A stretch of 64,000 bases of DNA from Arthrobacter silviterrae (lineage in GTDB: Bacteria > Actinomycetota > Actinomycetes > Actinomycetales > Micrococcaceae): the NCBI RefSeq assembly GCF_011045165.1, contig NZ_JAAKZI010000027.1:1-64000 (forward strand), given 5' to 3'. Below, one piece after another: positions 44,922-50,843 of the stretch. How positions within the stretch are numbered: position 1 is the stretch's first letter; every line of letters starts with the position of its first letter. Below the pieces are notes generated by a model that was not told where the DNA came from, did not search any database, and saw nothing but the letters and a program-made list of their open reading frames with translations. Position numbers and translations under genes: made by a program.

Positions 44922-45078
44922 AAGGCACCTCCCTTCACTCGTGGGGCCATTGGCGCCCCAACTCCTAAACAGCCTAGTGGTCCCAGCCGAGATGTCAACG
45001 ACTTTTTAGGGCAGTCGCAGGAGGTCCAAGGGCGGGGTGGGGCCGTCTGTGCCAGAATTGCAGGAAGCCACCAGGCAC

Positions 45079-45120
45079 CCGGACGAGGTGCGCCGTACCC
45101 GGCCAGCGACAAGACGGCGC
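45079..45120 (+). promoter_or_regulatory. Guanidine-III (ykkC-III) riboswitch
   Basis: The sequence begins CCGGACGAGGTGCGCCGTAC and continues CCGG, a seven-base link and ACAAGACGGCGC, the class-defining pseudoknot pattern known from Thermobifida fusca: the GCGCCGT segment pairs with ACGGCGC. It lies 51 bases before the start of the SMR exporter gene, on the same strand, which is the usual context. Ligand binding is expected to expose the AAGGGA ribosome-binding site at 45158-45163 (mechanism inferred). Confidence 0.93.
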
Positions 45121-45170
45121 GTGGCCTGCAGCAGCAGGCGCAGGTTCACCTCACCCGAAGGGACGTTGTC

Positions 45171-45485
45171 ATGGGATGGATTGTTTTAGTTGTTTCAGGA
45201 GTGCTCGAGGCTGTTTGGGCGACGGCACTGGGCCGGAGCATGGGATTCAGCAAGGCGGGACCCACGGTGGTGTTCGCAGTGGCCCTGGTGGGAAGCATGG
45301 CCGGTTTGGCCTGGGCCATGCGCACGCTTCCCACGGGCACTGCCTACGCGGTGTGGGTGGGGATCGGCGCTTCCCTGACCGTGGCGTATGCGATGGCCAC
45401 GGGCGCCGAGACGGTCTCCCTGCTCAAGGTGCTGTTGCTGCTGGGGCTTATCTCATGCATTGTGGGGCTGAAGCTGGCCCACTAG
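45171..45485 (+). CDS. gdx: Small multidrug resistance family guanidinium exporter (Gdx/SugE-like)
   Basis: 104 residues, four membrane helices. The SMR active-site Glu is in VVSGVLEAVWATALGRSMGF (about Glu13), and LPTGTAYAVWVGIGASLTV carries the helix-3 Gly/Trp pattern. The Gdx subgroup exports guanidinium in exchange for two protons as an antiparallel dimer. The guanidine-III riboswitch directly upstream is strong support for guanidinium over broad drug efflux. Single gene without a paired SMR partner, as for Gdx. The ATG at 45171 is chosen; the longer open frame upstream runs through the riboswitch and is not coding. Confidence 0.92.
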   Translation: MGWIVLVVSGVLEAVWATALGRSMGFSKAGPTVVFAVALVGSMAGLAWAMRTLPTGTAYAVWVGIGASLTVAYAMATGAETVSLLKVLLLLGLISCIVGLKLAH

Positions 45486-46583: not shown

Positions 46584-46658
46584 GGGCGATTGGCGCAGTG
46601 GTAGCGCGCTTCGTTCACACCGAAGAGGTCACTGGTTCGAACCCAGTATCGCCCACCA
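46584..46658 (+). tRNA. tRNA-Val(CAC), CCA encoded
   Basis: Plus-strand cloverleaf: GGGCGAT/ATCGCCC acceptor, D-arm GCGCAGTGGTAGCGC, anticodon stem CTTCG/CGAAG with loop TTCACAC (anticodon CAC), T-loop GTTCGAACC, ACCA at the 3' end. Acceptor and T arms resemble tRNA-Val(GAC), which suggests a common origin. Followed immediately by a strong terminator. Confidence 0.96.
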
Positions 46659-46662
46659 GAAT

Positions 46663-46707
46663 AAAAGCCCCGCTCACCTGCTTTCAACGCAGGGAGCGGG
46701 GCTTTTT
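46663..46707 (+). terminator. Rho-independent terminator after tRNA-Val(CAC)
   Basis: AAAAGCCCCGCTC, CCTGC, GCAGG and AGCGGGGCTTTTT make a long stem with one bulge and a run of five T. Confidence 0.93.
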
Positions 46708-46735
46708 CGTGAGGGTTGCTTTCCGAGGCTCCCCC

Positions 46736-46785
46736 AAAAATGTGACAGCTACTGTCCGGCCTCGGCCGTGCAGGCCAACATTTTT
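46736..46785. repeat. Cruciform-like inverted repeats upstream of the PD-(D/E)XK gene
   Basis: Outer arms AAAAATGT (46736-46743) and ACATTTTT (46778-46785) enclose an inner pair GGCCT/AGGCC. Could be a terminator reinforcing the tRNA unit or an operator. Function unknown. Confidence 0.4.
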
Positions 46786-46891
46786 GACTGTACAGGTGGA
46801 TAGCGGCACCGGCAACGGGTTTGGCATTCGAGTGGACTATTGTTATCAGGCCGATATCTGGCAGGGCCGCACATTTCGGTCTCGGCCTGGG

Positions 46892-46900
46892 TTATCCACA
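46892..46900 (+). promoter_or_regulatory. Single perfect DnaA-box sequence
   Basis: TTATCCACA matches the classical DnaA box exactly and lies 52 bp before the nuclease-like gene. No other box is seen nearby, so this is not an origin; it could be chance or a titration/regulatory site. Confidence 0.35.
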
Positions 46901-46939
46901 GTTGCGCCGCGCAGGGTGCACCGTGTCCGTCGGTGGTGA

Positions 46940-46945
46940 AATAGT
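46940..46945 (+). promoter_or_regulatory. -10-like box, leaderless start of the nuclease-like gene
   Basis: AATAGT ends six bases before the ATG at 46952, the same geometry seen at several other starts in this window. Confidence 0.4.
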
Positions 46946-46951
46946 GGAACC

Positions 46952-47794
46952 ATGACGGCACCGGCATTGGCACACTCCACAGAACTTGGGCGCATGTACG
47001 CCCGCTCCTTGACTGAACCGCCCAAGGTTCCCTCTATCACCACAGTGATTGGACAGCAGGCGAACAGCCTGGACGGTTGGATCGGCTACATGGCGGCCAA
47101 CGCCGTGGCGAACCACCCTGACCTTGGCACCGCCGTCGGCAATCCCCGGCAGTTGCGCACCGTGGTGCGCGACAGCTCCAATGCCGCCGAACAGTACCGG
47201 GACGCCGCCGCTTCGCGCGGGGACCGGGTCCACTACTACTGTGAACAGGTCTCGCTGCGGGCCCTGGGACGCCCGGAACAGCTGCTGGCGGCACGGGCGT
47301 CGCTTGCTGAGAAGGGGGAGGAAAAGTTCGCCGACCGCTTTGACGCCTGGTGGAATGAATACCAAGTGCAGCCGCTGGCCCCTGAAATCACGGTGTGGAA
47401 TGAGTCCCTCGGATACGCCGGCACCTTGGACCTGGTCGCCACCATTGGCGGCAAGCTGTGCATCATCGACTACAAAACCAAGGGAACCGACCGCAACGGC
47501 CAGGTCAAGGCCTTGGATGCCAAGGTGGTCATGCAGCTGGTGGCCGGGATGAAGGCCGAGGAATCCATTGTGGATGAGGCGGCCGGGACCTGGGAGGCCT
47601 GGAGGTACGGGCAGGATCCGGTGCTGCTGGGCGTGGCGATTGGCGAAACGGAAGTCCGCACCGAACGCGCCAACCCCGCCGTCCTGAAGGAACACTGGTT
47701 CAAGTTCGCGTCGCTGCGGCGGGTCTGGCAAACCTCCCTTGACGCCGCCCGGGCCGGGCAGCCCCTGCTCCCCATTGTCCCGCCCGCCAGGTGA
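46952..47794 (+). CDS. PD-(D/E)XK (RecB/Cas4-like) nuclease-fold protein
   Basis: 280 residues. The core motif is legible: RGDRVHYYCE (about 88-97), then EITVWNESLGYAGTLDLVA (about 146-164) with the acidic metal residues and CIIDYKTKG (about 171-179) supplying the D-x-K. This is the arrangement of RecB-family exonucleases such as Cas4 and viral exonucleases, and no helicase or iron-sulfur cysteines are present. The C-terminal helix-rich part is unremarkable. It lies between the tRNA genes and def-fmt-rsmB, all on the same strand, with 57 bp to def. Nuclease activity is a fold-based inference. Confidence 0.8.
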   Translation: MTAPALAHSTELGRMYARSLTEPPKVPSITTVIGQQANSLDGWIGYMAANAVANHPDLGTAVGNPRQLRTVVRDSSNAAEQYRDAAASRGDRVHYYCEQVSLRALGRPEQLLAARASLAEKGEEKFADRFDAWWNEYQVQPLAPEITVWNESLGYAGTLDLVATIGGKLCIIDYKTKGTDRNGQVKALDAKVVMQLVAGMKAEESIVDEAAGTWEAWRYGQDPVLLGVAIGETEVRTERANPAVLKEHWFKFASLRRVWQTSLDAARAGQPLLPIVPPAR

Positions 47795-47851: not shown

Positions 47852-48415
47852 ATGGCCATCCTGAGCATCCGCATCATCGGCGACCCCGTCCTGCGAACTG
47901 TAGCGGGGGACGTGACGGACTTCGGCCCTGAACTGGCCAAGCTCATTGAGGACATGACCGAGACCATGGTGGATGTGCGGGGGGCGGGCCTGGCCGCACC
48001 GCAGGTGGGCGTCAGCAAACGCATTTTCACCTATTCCGTGGACGGCCAGGAAGGCCACGTCATCAACCCCGTCATCGTGGCCAGCGACGACTTCCAGCCG
48101 GACCAACCCGAAGGCTGCCTGTCCGTTCCGGGGCTGGGATTCAACGTACGCCGGCACCGTTGGGTGCGGATCACGGGGGTCGACCTGCACGGTGAGCCCC
48201 TTGACATGGAGGCCACAGGCCAGCTGGCCAAGTGCTTCCAGCATGAAACCGACCACCTCAACGGCAAGCTGTACGTGGACCGGCTGGACGGGGACGACCG
48301 AAAGGACGCCCTGCGCGCCATCCGCACGGCCAACTACCACGACGTGACTGCCCAGACCGTTGCCAAGCGCTCCCGCACCGTTGGCTCCGCCTTTGGTGCA
48401 GGCGCGGCGCAGTGA
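47852..48415 (+). CDS. def: Peptide deformylase
   Basis: 187 residues. Removes the formyl group from nascent N-terminal fMet. All motifs are present: GAGLAAPQVG, EGCLSVPG (metal-binding Cys89) and QHETDHLNG (HExxH-type, His131, Glu132, His135). The ATG at 47852 has GAGG at the usual distance; a GTG 15 bases upstream is less likely. Its stop overlaps the GTG of fmt by four bases, so the two act and are translated together. Confidence 0.97.
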   Translation: MAILSIRIIGDPVLRTVAGDVTDFGPELAKLIEDMTETMVDVRGAGLAAPQVGVSKRIFTYSVDGQEGHVINPVIVASDDFQPDQPEGCLSVPGLGFNVRRHRWVRITGVDLHGEPLDMEATGQLAKCFQHETDHLNGKLYVDRLDGDDRKDALRAIRTANYHDVTAQTVAKRSRTVGSAFGAGAAQ

Positions 48416-49332
48416 GGGTCCTTTTTGCCGGCACGCCCGCCGTCGCCCTGCCGTCCCTGGAAGCCCTGCGGGCGGACGGACATGAAATCGTCGCCGTCCT
48501 GACCCGTCCGGACGCGCCGGTGGGGCGCAAACGGGTACTCACGCCGTCGCCCGTTGCCGTACGCGCCCAGGACCTTGGCCTTCCGGTCATCAAGGCCGGC
48601 CGCATTGACGCCGCGGCCGTTGCCGCCATCGCCGAAGCTGCCCCCGATGTGGCCGCCATCGTGGCCTACGGGGCCCTGATTCCCGAGGACGCGCTGTCCC
48701 TTCCGCCCCACGGCTGGATCAACCTGCACTTTTCGCTGCTGCCCGCATGGCGGGGGGCGGCACCCGTGCAGCACGCGCTCATCAACGGCGACGAGGTCAC
48801 GGGGGCCACCACGTTCCTGCTGGAAAAAGGGCTCGACACCGGCCCTGCCTACGGCACCATGACCGAAACCGTCCGCGCCACCGACACCAGCGCCGCGCTG
48901 CTTGAACGCCTCTCCCACAGCGGGGCCGTGCTCCTCGCGCAGACCCTTGCCGCGCTCGACGCCGGGCAGGCGGCCGGGGTGCCCCAGCAAGGCGACGTTT
49001 CCCTTGCCCCCAAGCTCACGCTGGAAGACGGCCATGTGCGCTGGGACCACCCCGCGCTGGCCATCAGCCGCAGGGTCAGGGGCGTCACCACCGAGCCGGG
49101 CGCCTGGACCACGCTGGGCGGACAGCGCTTCAAGCTGGGCCCGGTGGCACTCCGCCCGGACGTCAGCGGGCTGGCCCCCGGCAGGGTGCGCCTTGACGGC
49201 CGGGCCGTCCTGGTGGGAACCGGCTCCCACGCCGTGCAACTGGCGGACGTGCAACCCGCCGGCAAGAAACTGATGAACGCAAGCGACTGGGCCCGCGGCC
49301 TGGCGAACAAGGAAGATGTGGTGTTTGAATGA
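48412..49332 (+). CDS. fmt: Methionyl-tRNA formyltransferase
   Basis: 306 residues. Formylates initiator Met-tRNA using 10-formyl-tetrahydrofolate. The N-terminal formyltransferase domain has LFAGTPAVALPSLEAL and INLHFSLLPAWRGAAPVQHA with the catalytic Asn/His, and LEKGLDTGP; the C-terminal tRNA-binding OB domain follows from about residue 205. The GTG start overlaps def by four bases and the stop overlaps the rsmB ATG (ATGA), so def-fmt-rsmB are coupled. Confidence 0.97.
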   Translation: MRVLFAGTPAVALPSLEALRADGHEIVAVLTRPDAPVGRKRVLTPSPVAVRAQDLGLPVIKAGRIDAAAVAAIAEAAPDVAAIVAYGALIPEDALSLPPHGWINLHFSLLPAWRGAAPVQHALINGDEVTGATTFLLEKGLDTGPAYGTMTETVRATDTSAALLERLSHSGAVLLAQTLAALDAGQAAGVPQQGDVSLAPKLTLEDGHVRWDHPALAISRRVRGVTTEPGAWTTLGGQRFKLGPVALRPDVSGLAPGRVRLDGRAVLVGTGSHAVQLADVQPAGKKLMNASDWARGLANKEDVVFE

Positions 49333-50843
49333 CCAGTGAGCATGGCGGCGTACGCCGCCGGGACAGCGCGGGGCGCGAACGCAACCGCGCCACCGGGCGG
49401 AATCGCACCACTGCGGCACCGTCCCAGCGCACCCGGGCCGCAGACCCGGCCCGGCTGGTGGCCTATGAAGTACTGCGGGCTGTTTCAGCCGATGACGCCT
49501 ACGCCAACCTGGTCATGCCGGCACGCATCCGCCACCACCATCTGGACCGGCGGGACGCCGGCTTCGCCACCGAACTGGCCTATGGCGCCCTCCGCGGGCA
49601 GGGCAGCTACGACGCCATCCTGGCCCGCTGCGTGGACCGGCCGCTGTCCGAACTTGATCCTGCCATCCTCGACGCGCTGCGCATCGGCGTCCACCAGCTG
49701 CTGGCCATGCGCGTGCCGGCCCATGCGGCACTCGACCAGACCGTGGGCCTGGCCCGCGCTGTCATCGGGGCCGGCCCGTCAGCCCTCATCAATGCCGTGC
49801 TGCGGAGGGTGTCCGCCCAAAGCCTGCAGGAGTGGCTGGCGCAACTGACGGACGGCCTCACGGACGATGTCAAGATTGCCTCCATCACCGAATCCCACCC
49901 CGAATGGATTGTCCGCTCGCTGCGCCAGGCCCTCGTGGCCCACGGCCGCGACGCCGCCGAAATCACGGCGCTGCTGGAAGCCGACAATGCCGCGCCCGTG
50001 GTGAATCTGGTGGCACTGCCCGGCCTGGGCAGCCTCGACGAGGCATTTGACGCCGGGTTCACGCCCGGCCCCCTGGTCATTGATTCGGCGCTTTCCCCCG
50101 GCGGGGACCTGGGCCGGCTGTCGTCCGTCCGCGAGGGCACCGTCCGGGTCCAGGATGTCGGTTCGCAGCTGGTGGCCCGCGCCCTTGCCGCTGCTGAACT
50201 CACATCGGAACGCACCGACGGCGAGGAACGCTGGCTGGACATGTGCGCAGGGCCCGGCGGAAAGGCCGCCCTGCTGGCCGCGCTGGCCGCCGAACAGGGT
50301 GCCTGGATCCTGGCCAACGAACCCACGCCGCACCGGGCCCGGCTCGTTGAACAAGCCATGGCCGCCATTCCGGAAGACGCCTGGACGGTGCGCACGGGAG
50401 ACGGCCGCGACGTGGGCCGGGAGCACCCCGAGTCCTTTGACCGCATCCTGGTGGACGCGCCCTGCACCGGCCTGGGCGCCCTGCGGCGCCGGCCCGAGTC
50501 CCGCTGGCGCCGCCAGCTCTCCGATGTCTCCGAGCTGGGCCCGCTGCAGCGCGAACTGCTCGACTCGGCCCTCTCCGCCGTAAAACGCGGGGGAGTGGTG
50601 GCCTATGTGACGTGTTCGCCGCACATCGCCGAGACCCTGGCCGTGGTGGACGACGCGTTGCGGGGACGCACCGACCTTGAACTGCTCGACGCCGGAGCAG
50701 CCCTTGACGCCGTGAGCCTCACGGGGAAGCTGGACGCCGGAAATGCCGGCTCGCCGCTGCCGGTCCACCGGATGACGGCACAGCTGTGGCCCCACCTCCA
50801 CCAAACCGACGCCATGTTCCTGGCACTCATCCGCAAGCTCTGA
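49329..50843 (+). CDS. rsmB: 16S rRNA (cytosine(967)-C(5))-methyltransferase RsmB-like
   Basis: 504 residues. A basic, low-complexity N-terminal 45 residues precede a NusB-like helical domain (about 45-185) and a Fmu-type m5C methyltransferase domain. SAM-binding [16 protein letters not shown] (about 300), motif [20 protein letters not shown] with the release Cys, and [13 protein letters not shown] with the nucleophile Cys are present. Typical partner of def-fmt in actinobacteria. The basic extension probably aids RNA binding. Confidence 0.95.

Follow-up and report, generated by a model that had tools for sequence, protein, structure and literature searches.

Between a tRNA gene and the housekeeping genes def, fmt and rsmB, the 64,000-nucleotide stretch of Arthrobacter silviterrae DNA analyzed here (the window) carries a gene whose product looks like a nuclease standing on its own. 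The question raised by this locus is what such a protein does there. In the first-pass annotation it was taken for a possible orphan DNA-repair or defence nuclease with a RecB/Cas4-like active site and no phage context.

The open reading frame starts with ATG and encodes 280 amino acids, with the boundaries first described for it (Table 1). Pfam matches confirmed that def, fmt and rsmB adjoin the gene, and a ribulose-phosphate epimerase gene also lies downstream on the same strand as these three. Neither an annealing-protein gene among the identified neighbours nor a cas gene beside the tRNA-Val and def-fmt-rsmB flanks was found. Further upstream, a guanidine-III riboswitch (45062-45123; Rfam, 64.3 bits) lies 5' of a frame for an SMR-family transporter that ends at 45485.

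Table 1. Coordinates of the features at the nuclease locus, as positions in the window.
Feature	Position	Strand	Basis or remark
tRNA-Val(CAC)	46584..46658	+	5' of the nuclease gene
Terminator-like site	46677..46710	+	after tRNA-Val, before the nuclease promoter
DnaA-box-like 9-mer TTATCCACA	46892-46900	+	60 nt before the start; only exact copy in the window, 0.05 expected
Putative -26 box of PafBC-type promoter, TGTCCG (family consensus TGTCRG)	46924..46929	+	whole pattern matches once in the window, 0.07 expected
Putative extended -10, TGA-AATAGT	46937..46945	+	6 nt before the ATG
Predicted MGME1/phage-type RecB-superfamily exonuclease gene	46952..47794	+	translation, profile matches, model, family-wide presence
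Codons G90-D-R-V-H94, GxxxH motif	47219..47233	+	G90 and H94 invariant in alignment A1 and in 21/21 non-family relatives
Codon E145, motif I Glu	47384..47386	+	15 residues before D160, cf. MGME1 E223-D238
Codon D160 of GYAGTLD	47429..47431	+	putative metal ligand by analogy with MGME1 D238
Codons D173-Y-K175, D-x-K motif	47468..47476	+	cf. MGME1 D251, K253
Codon Q195, Q of RecB-type QxxxY-like motif	47534..47536	+	Y position is G199
def (peptide deformylase), next gene 3' of the nuclease gene	47852..48415	+	Pfam PF01327, 6.5e-47, frame from 47837
fmt	48412-49332	+	downstream of def
rsmB	49329-50843	+	downstream of fmt

The two sequences on which the nuclease assignment was first based, GYAGTLDLVA (with D160) and CIIDYKTKG (with D173 and K175), are present in the frame. 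Conservation was read from an alignment of 24 family members (A1), consisting of the window's protein and 23 of the 46 loci of a contig set. G90, H94, E145, D160, D173, K175 and Q195 are invariant in 24/24 members, and the N-terminal stretch GRMY...VPSITTVI is also largely invariant. Outside the family, H94, E145, D160, D173, K175 and Q195 are kept in 21/21 aligned rows of relatives (six from a second family, f11, three from plasmids, six from phages, four from viral contigs and two from other genomes). The loss of acidic residues in homologues, which had been named as a reason to abandon the assignment, was seen in none of the 24 members and 21 relatives. Q195 belongs to a RecB-type motif similar to QxxxY.

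Profile searches with the window's protein gave a weak Pfam PDDEXK_1 match (E 0.001, under the curated cut-off), which was found at E up to 0.1 in 24/24 A1 members, and a strong match to the phage profile PHROG_298, "exonuclease" (1.4e-26, residues 10-179). The best viral-model match (E 5e-16) was to a PD-(D/E)XK protein from an uncultured phage. A structure predicted from 24 input sequences reached a pLDDT of 85.3 and a pTM of 0.79, with residues 37-43 below 50, and the PD-(D/E)XK alpha/beta core, whose absence would have counted against the assignment, is found in the model. All Foldseek ranks from 1 to 9 were MGME1 chains, with E down to 6e-9, and VIA-align superposed the model on MGME1 with Z 17.7 and rmsd 3.3 over 196 residues. 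The first other fold, RecE, came far below (Z 11.7, rmsd 7.8), followed by Dna2 (Z 11.1), Cas4 SSO0001 (10.9) and AdnA (10.6). In addition, when the PDB was searched with the family profile at E up to 1, MGME1 alone came up (4.7e-5, about 39 residues aligned). The model, the fold matches and the invariant motif residues agree with a stand-alone PD-(D/E)XK protein, and the gene product is a predicted nuclease of the RecB superfamily.

MGME1, a human mitochondrial protein, is described as a DNase without a helicase that cleaves single strands and flaps, with the catalytic residues E223, D238, D251 and K253 (PMC6237815), and it was crystallized with overhang DNA (PMC6237815; structure entry titles). 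The two proteins have in common the best-match fold, the E-15-D-13-D-x-K spacing of the active site, a His and the lack of a helicase domain; by motif order, H94 would correspond to MGME1 His180. They differ in that identity across the structural alignment is only about 19%, and in that the nuclease is bacterial and has a DNA-damage-type promoter. MGME1 has an aromatic pin and a helical arch that let single strands in. From the fold and the residues, the nuclease should cut single strands and flaps as MGME1 does, and it is on this likeness that we infer both its activity as an enzyme and its substrate.

The Cas4-like half of the original active-site description did not hold, while the RecB half did. 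Cas4 shares the RecB-type PD-(D/E)XK fold with the nuclease, but Cas4 proteins carry an Fe-S module with four conserved cysteines (PMC5704561), whereas the window's protein has two cysteines only, Cys 97 and Cys 170, and no cas neighbour. A1 members have one to four cysteines, with C170 as the sole invariant Cys column. A Cas4 identity was rejected because of the missing cysteines, the fold rank below MGME1 and the genomic context.

The distribution of the gene was then followed in sampled family genomes of at least 90% completeness, the named loci having titles and lineages that point to Micrococcaceae as the family. An orthologue was found in 197/197 genomes and 31/31 genera, with a single match in nearly all of them (G169, G228, G238 and G256 are among those with two). 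The def gene lies within 270 bases 3' of the nuclease gene in 43/46 loci, and the def pattern was not found in the other three. At the order level, 30/198 sampled genomes matched the nuclease (15 Micrococcaceae and 13 f11), and at the class level 15/393, of which seven were Micrococcaceae and eight scored far lower. Five close pairs gave pN of 0.037-0.074 vs pS of 0.38-0.69, with dN/dS of about 0.04-0.08, indicating purifying selection. Far from the orphan that it had seemed, the nuclease belongs to the core genes of the family and keeps its synteny. Full Micrococcaceae-type copies together with def also occur in records titled Sporosarcina beigongshangi and Curtobacterium sp. S6 (L033, L053), which are probably mislabelled or contaminated.

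Defence genes are usually patchy in distribution. The presence of the nuclease in every sampled family genome, as one match in nearly all, is not what would be expected of a stand-alone anti-phage or anti-plasmid enzyme, and neither are the synteny, the purifying selection, the tRNA and housekeeping neighbours and the promoter motif common to repair genes described below. In its favour, the superfamily takes in Cas4 and other defence nucleases, and weak PADLOC matches were obtained, the best to Cas4c (E 0.014) and another to Cas1g (E 0.026). Taken together, a defence function is highly improbable, while the DNA-repair role that was offered beside it remains plausible.

The PHROG_298 match pointed to actinophage exonucleases (annotated "exonuclease" or "Cas4 family exonuclease"). 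They are about 24-31% identical to the nuclease among the matches listed, with the same catalytic residues in 6/6 aligned phage rows and P27 in 5/6. In the examined phages the gene stands near RecT-like, nucleotide-metabolism or SSB genes, whereas the nuclease gene occupies a fixed chromosomal place with a host-type promoter; likewise, the PHROG_298 carriers are phages, while the nuclease is a core chromosomal gene that a provirus merely abuts in two records. The initial statement that there is no phage context is correct within the window but not beyond it, given the phage exonucleases among the distant relatives and these abutting proviruses. The two IMG/VR proviruses stop just beyond the nuclease orthologue (L230, L231), and both contain a 46-base near-copy (two mismatches) of the tRNA-Val 3' end (L230:3866-3911, L231:3864-3909) that starts about 135 bases 5' of the orthologue. 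The tRNA-Val(CAC) beside the nuclease gene thus looks like a prophage attachment site.

Among the matches listed, the closest full-length copies outside the family are found on Rhodococcus plasmids rather than in phages; they are near full-length and 36-42% identical. These plasmid homologues are annotated "cytochrome", an evident misnomer (L264:5001-5957, L266:3001-4011). In a tree of 34 hand-chosen rows, the Rhodococcus and Frondihabitans plasmid copies group with the family, and phages and f11 stand apart. Since 14/31 inner forks are open and long branches meet, no direction of plasmid or phage transfer is claimed. The f11 homologue (about 305 aa) is core in 41/42 f11 genomes (loci including L016-L027, L030 and L258-L263), family-wide like the nuclease and with the same N-terminal and catalytic motifs. 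It differs in being about 32-42% identical over the matched part and in its locus, apparently between glnE and glnA as judged by eye, where the gene has an SD-like leader and lacks, at -28, the promoter motif described below.

These relatives also bear on whether the nuclease could be a captured phage recombination exonuclease, that is, the resecting half of a RecE/RecT-like pair with the host annealing protein encoded elsewhere. Two of the phage relatives stand two genes before a RecT-like gene, RecE is the first fold after MGME1, and the phage profile match itself agrees with such an origin. However, the identified neighbours include no annealing-protein gene, the tree fails to show a phage-to-family direction rather than the reverse, and the closest full-length non-family copies are those on plasmids. 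This makes a RecE/RecT-type partnership very doubtful.

The upstream region was examined in 89 of 104 loci, L016-L030 (15) having been left out beforehand. In many of the 89 orthologues, TGTC[AG]G is separated by ten bases from nAnnnT, which in turn precedes the start codon by about six. In publications the PafBC motif reads TGTCGG-10N-TA-3N-T, and TGTCAG and TGTCAC occur as variants in M. tuberculosis (PMC8151990); PafBC is reported to recognize its motif at -26 through sigma adaptation (PMC11804915). The window copy has 7/9 motif positions and departs from the motif by its TGTCCG and by A instead of T at -12. The 6-nt gap between the -10 element and the ATG would place +1 on the A of the ATG at 46952, and no clear Shine-Dalgarno sequence was seen by eye before this codon. 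The leaderless start proposed at first gains support from this promoter geometry, from which transcription is likely to begin at the ATG.

A score of nine fixed positions (TGTCRG-N10-nAnnnT), with a threshold of at least 7, was applied to 60 family genomes from 31 genera. Gene starts were set by rule, as the start codon 10-14 codons before GRMY or else the farthest of those examined; four genomes without an exact GRMY motif were handled apart, and for two genomes the ATG start was entered manually. A score of at least 7 at -27 to -29 was obtained in 38/60 genomes and 23/31 genera, while 22/60 genomes scored below 7, including all three genomes of genus g4, though recA keeps 9/9 there. At 18 other offsets in the same upstream DNA, only 0 or 1 of 60 reached the threshold each, and mononucleotide shuffles reached it in 0.5% of cases, both controls having been run with wrong gene starts for two of the 60 genomes. 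The def starts of the same loci (n = 43) had a maximum score of 5, and of the background ATG-led frames, which take in internal ATGs and both strands, 2/3220 reached 7. In a Rothia-rich contig set, 15/46 loci did so.

In the 38 motif-bearing genomes, the G, T, C and last G of the box are present in 38/38, as are the A and T of the -10, all of these being scored positions. The TG of the extended -10, which is outside the score, occurs at 37 and 36 of 38. The published T at -12 is rare in nuclease promoters, so the extended -10 would have to compensate for it.

Two other upstream signals were considered. The core of the LexA SOS box is GAAC-N4-GTTC, and none was found at 46659-46952; of three exact copies in the window, one lies inside the gene at 47690. 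SOS/LexA control of the nuclease was rejected, the promoter region having no box. The single DnaA-like box noted in the first-pass annotation, for its part, is indeed there as the sole exact copy in the window (Table 1). It forms an island at about -61 amid diverged sequence in near relatives (11/13 rows exact, one with a variant base and one without), but no such box was seen at this position in the other genera, and the 9-mer cannot be a family-wide control for this reason.

The presence of the regulator and the extent of its motif were studied in order to evaluate a PafBC-type assignment. In the own genome, two WYL-domain matches fall in one PafBC-like frame of 709 codons, which indicates that PafBC is present as one fused protein; a natural PafBC fusion is reported for Arthrobacter aurescens (PMC6789036). 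A PafBC-like frame was matched in 60/61 family genomes, weakly in g4, g5 and g83, and the weakest matches may be other WYL proteins. The nuclease motif was found in 32/40 genomes with a PafBC match of at least 200 bits and in 6/20 below (Spearman 0.48), a relation that is confounded by phylogeny. The own-genome recA carries TGTCGG-N10-TAGCGT 169 bases before its start. Family recA regions reach 9/9 positions in 42/60 genomes and at least 8 in 51/60, although the recA score was the best within about 270 bases, which gave it more opportunities than the nuclease score at its fixed position.

Scanning for the leaderless motif gave 15 matches in the own genome vs 6 for the reversed pattern, and 16 vs 1 and 37 vs 7 in genomes of two other genera. 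The own-genome pattern was TGTCNG (chosen to admit the window's TGTCCG) with spacing 5-6, and that of the other two TGTCRG with spacing 5-7; the three lists therefore do not stand on exactly the same footing. For the cross-genome comparison (BLAST, 1e-8), only frames of at least 60 aa were used, namely 12/15 in the own genome and 33/37 and 14/16 in the others. The orthologues common to all three lists are radA, sbcD and the nuclease, and those common to two genomes are RmuC, a DnaQ-like exonuclease, an AlkA-like protein and a hydrolase-like protein.

The own-genome motif-led genes encode RadA, an SbcD-type protein, RmuC, a DNA polymerase III epsilon-like exonuclease, the nuclease, an AlkA-like glycosylase (E 4.8e-7, under the cut-off), DUF222, GNAT and hydrolase-like proteins, and others; three matches precede frames below 60 aa, and one 149-aa frame (L112) is unconvincing. 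Other motif-led genes encode a RecQ-like helicase, an Lhr-like helicase (the label Lhr being ours) and a photolyase. Since GNAT, hydrolase, DUF222 and plainly unrelated genes are also motif-led, the pattern alone is not repair-specific. DUF222 genes are motif-led in all three genomes (L107, L277, L281, L309, L282, L290; the names of L277, L309 and L282 come from BLAST similarity alone); one of these genes has an HNH match, three are near-copies in one genome, and the own DUF222 protein had no match to those of the other genomes at BLAST 1e-8. An alpha/beta-hydrolase-like gene is motif-led in two genera (L117, L311; 55% identical) and is a possible, unexpected damage-response gene.

It was also considered that the nuclease might be a constitutive housekeeping enzyme, trimming replication flaps or overhangs or processing imported DNA, with a strong extended -10 leaderless promoter and no role for PafBC. 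Presence in 197/197 genomes, retention where the motif is poor (22/60), the adjoining def-fmt-rsmB genes and the mostly missing -12 T would all suit such an enzyme. Nevertheless, the box is placed at -26, as for PafBC, and not at -35, with its G, T, C and last G constant in the 38 score-chosen genomes, and radA, sbcD, rmuC and (with a leader) recA have this pattern in front of them as well. A purely constitutive role was for these reasons considered unlikely.

The reading preferred here, to which a probability of about 70% was assigned, is that a phage-type exonuclease fixed in the Micrococcaceae chromosome is induced by PafBC and trims single-stranded ends in repair; action of PafBC at the nuclease promoter is, in this reading, what we infer from the upstream sequence. 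An exonuclease with neither helicase nor Fe-S cluster would have become fixed family-wide directly upstream of def. DNA damage would produce single-stranded DNA, and PafBC, a WYL regulator activated by it (PMC11804915), would steer RNA polymerase to the leaderless TGTCRG-N10-type promoter with its extended -10. The nuclease would then rise along with RadA, SbcD, RecA and other repair enzymes, RadA and SbcD being its putative co-induced partners. Most likely, it would need a free end, take up single strands and trim overhangs or flaps arising from breaks, fork reversal or strand exchange. Because PafBC is activated by single-stranded DNA, the nuclease could also consume the inducing signal. An extension of this idea makes it a feedback switch of the PafBC response: as one of the most conserved PafBC targets in the family, it would destroy the inducer while ends are repaired and so turn the response off, Micrococcaceae and f11 having fixed such enzymes at two loci; this was regarded as speculative and rather improbable.

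The arrangement proposed for the Arthrobacter relatives resembles the mycobacterial PafBC (RecA-NDp) regulon in promoter motif and geometry, recA membership and the presence of PafBC. It differs in the nuclease itself, since its profile matches just the 15 class-level genomes mentioned above, the strong ones all being Micrococcaceae. The functional counterpart of the nuclease in M. tuberculosis could be Rv2119, a protein overexpressed in PMC8151990 that is a putative recB-like exonuclease. Searches of the literature on PafBC/RecA-NDp regulons, bacterial MGME1 homologues, Micrococcaceae exonucleases and Cas4-like Arthrobacter proteins found no title on this nuclease gene among those listed, which is not proof that it is undescribed.

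For a core gene family with Rhodococcus plasmid relatives that bear the name "cytochrome", the analysis proposes a role that can be tested, and it describes a small relative of MGME1 that is bacterial and has no helicase. With this nuclease, the PafBC regulon predicted outside mycobacteria would gain a member. The motif comparison across three genomes also sketches a PafBC-type regulon for Micrococcaceae; radA, sbcD and recA would belong to it, joined by rmuC and by genes for a DnaQ-like exonuclease and an AlkA-like glycosylase, each of which was found in two of the three genomes.
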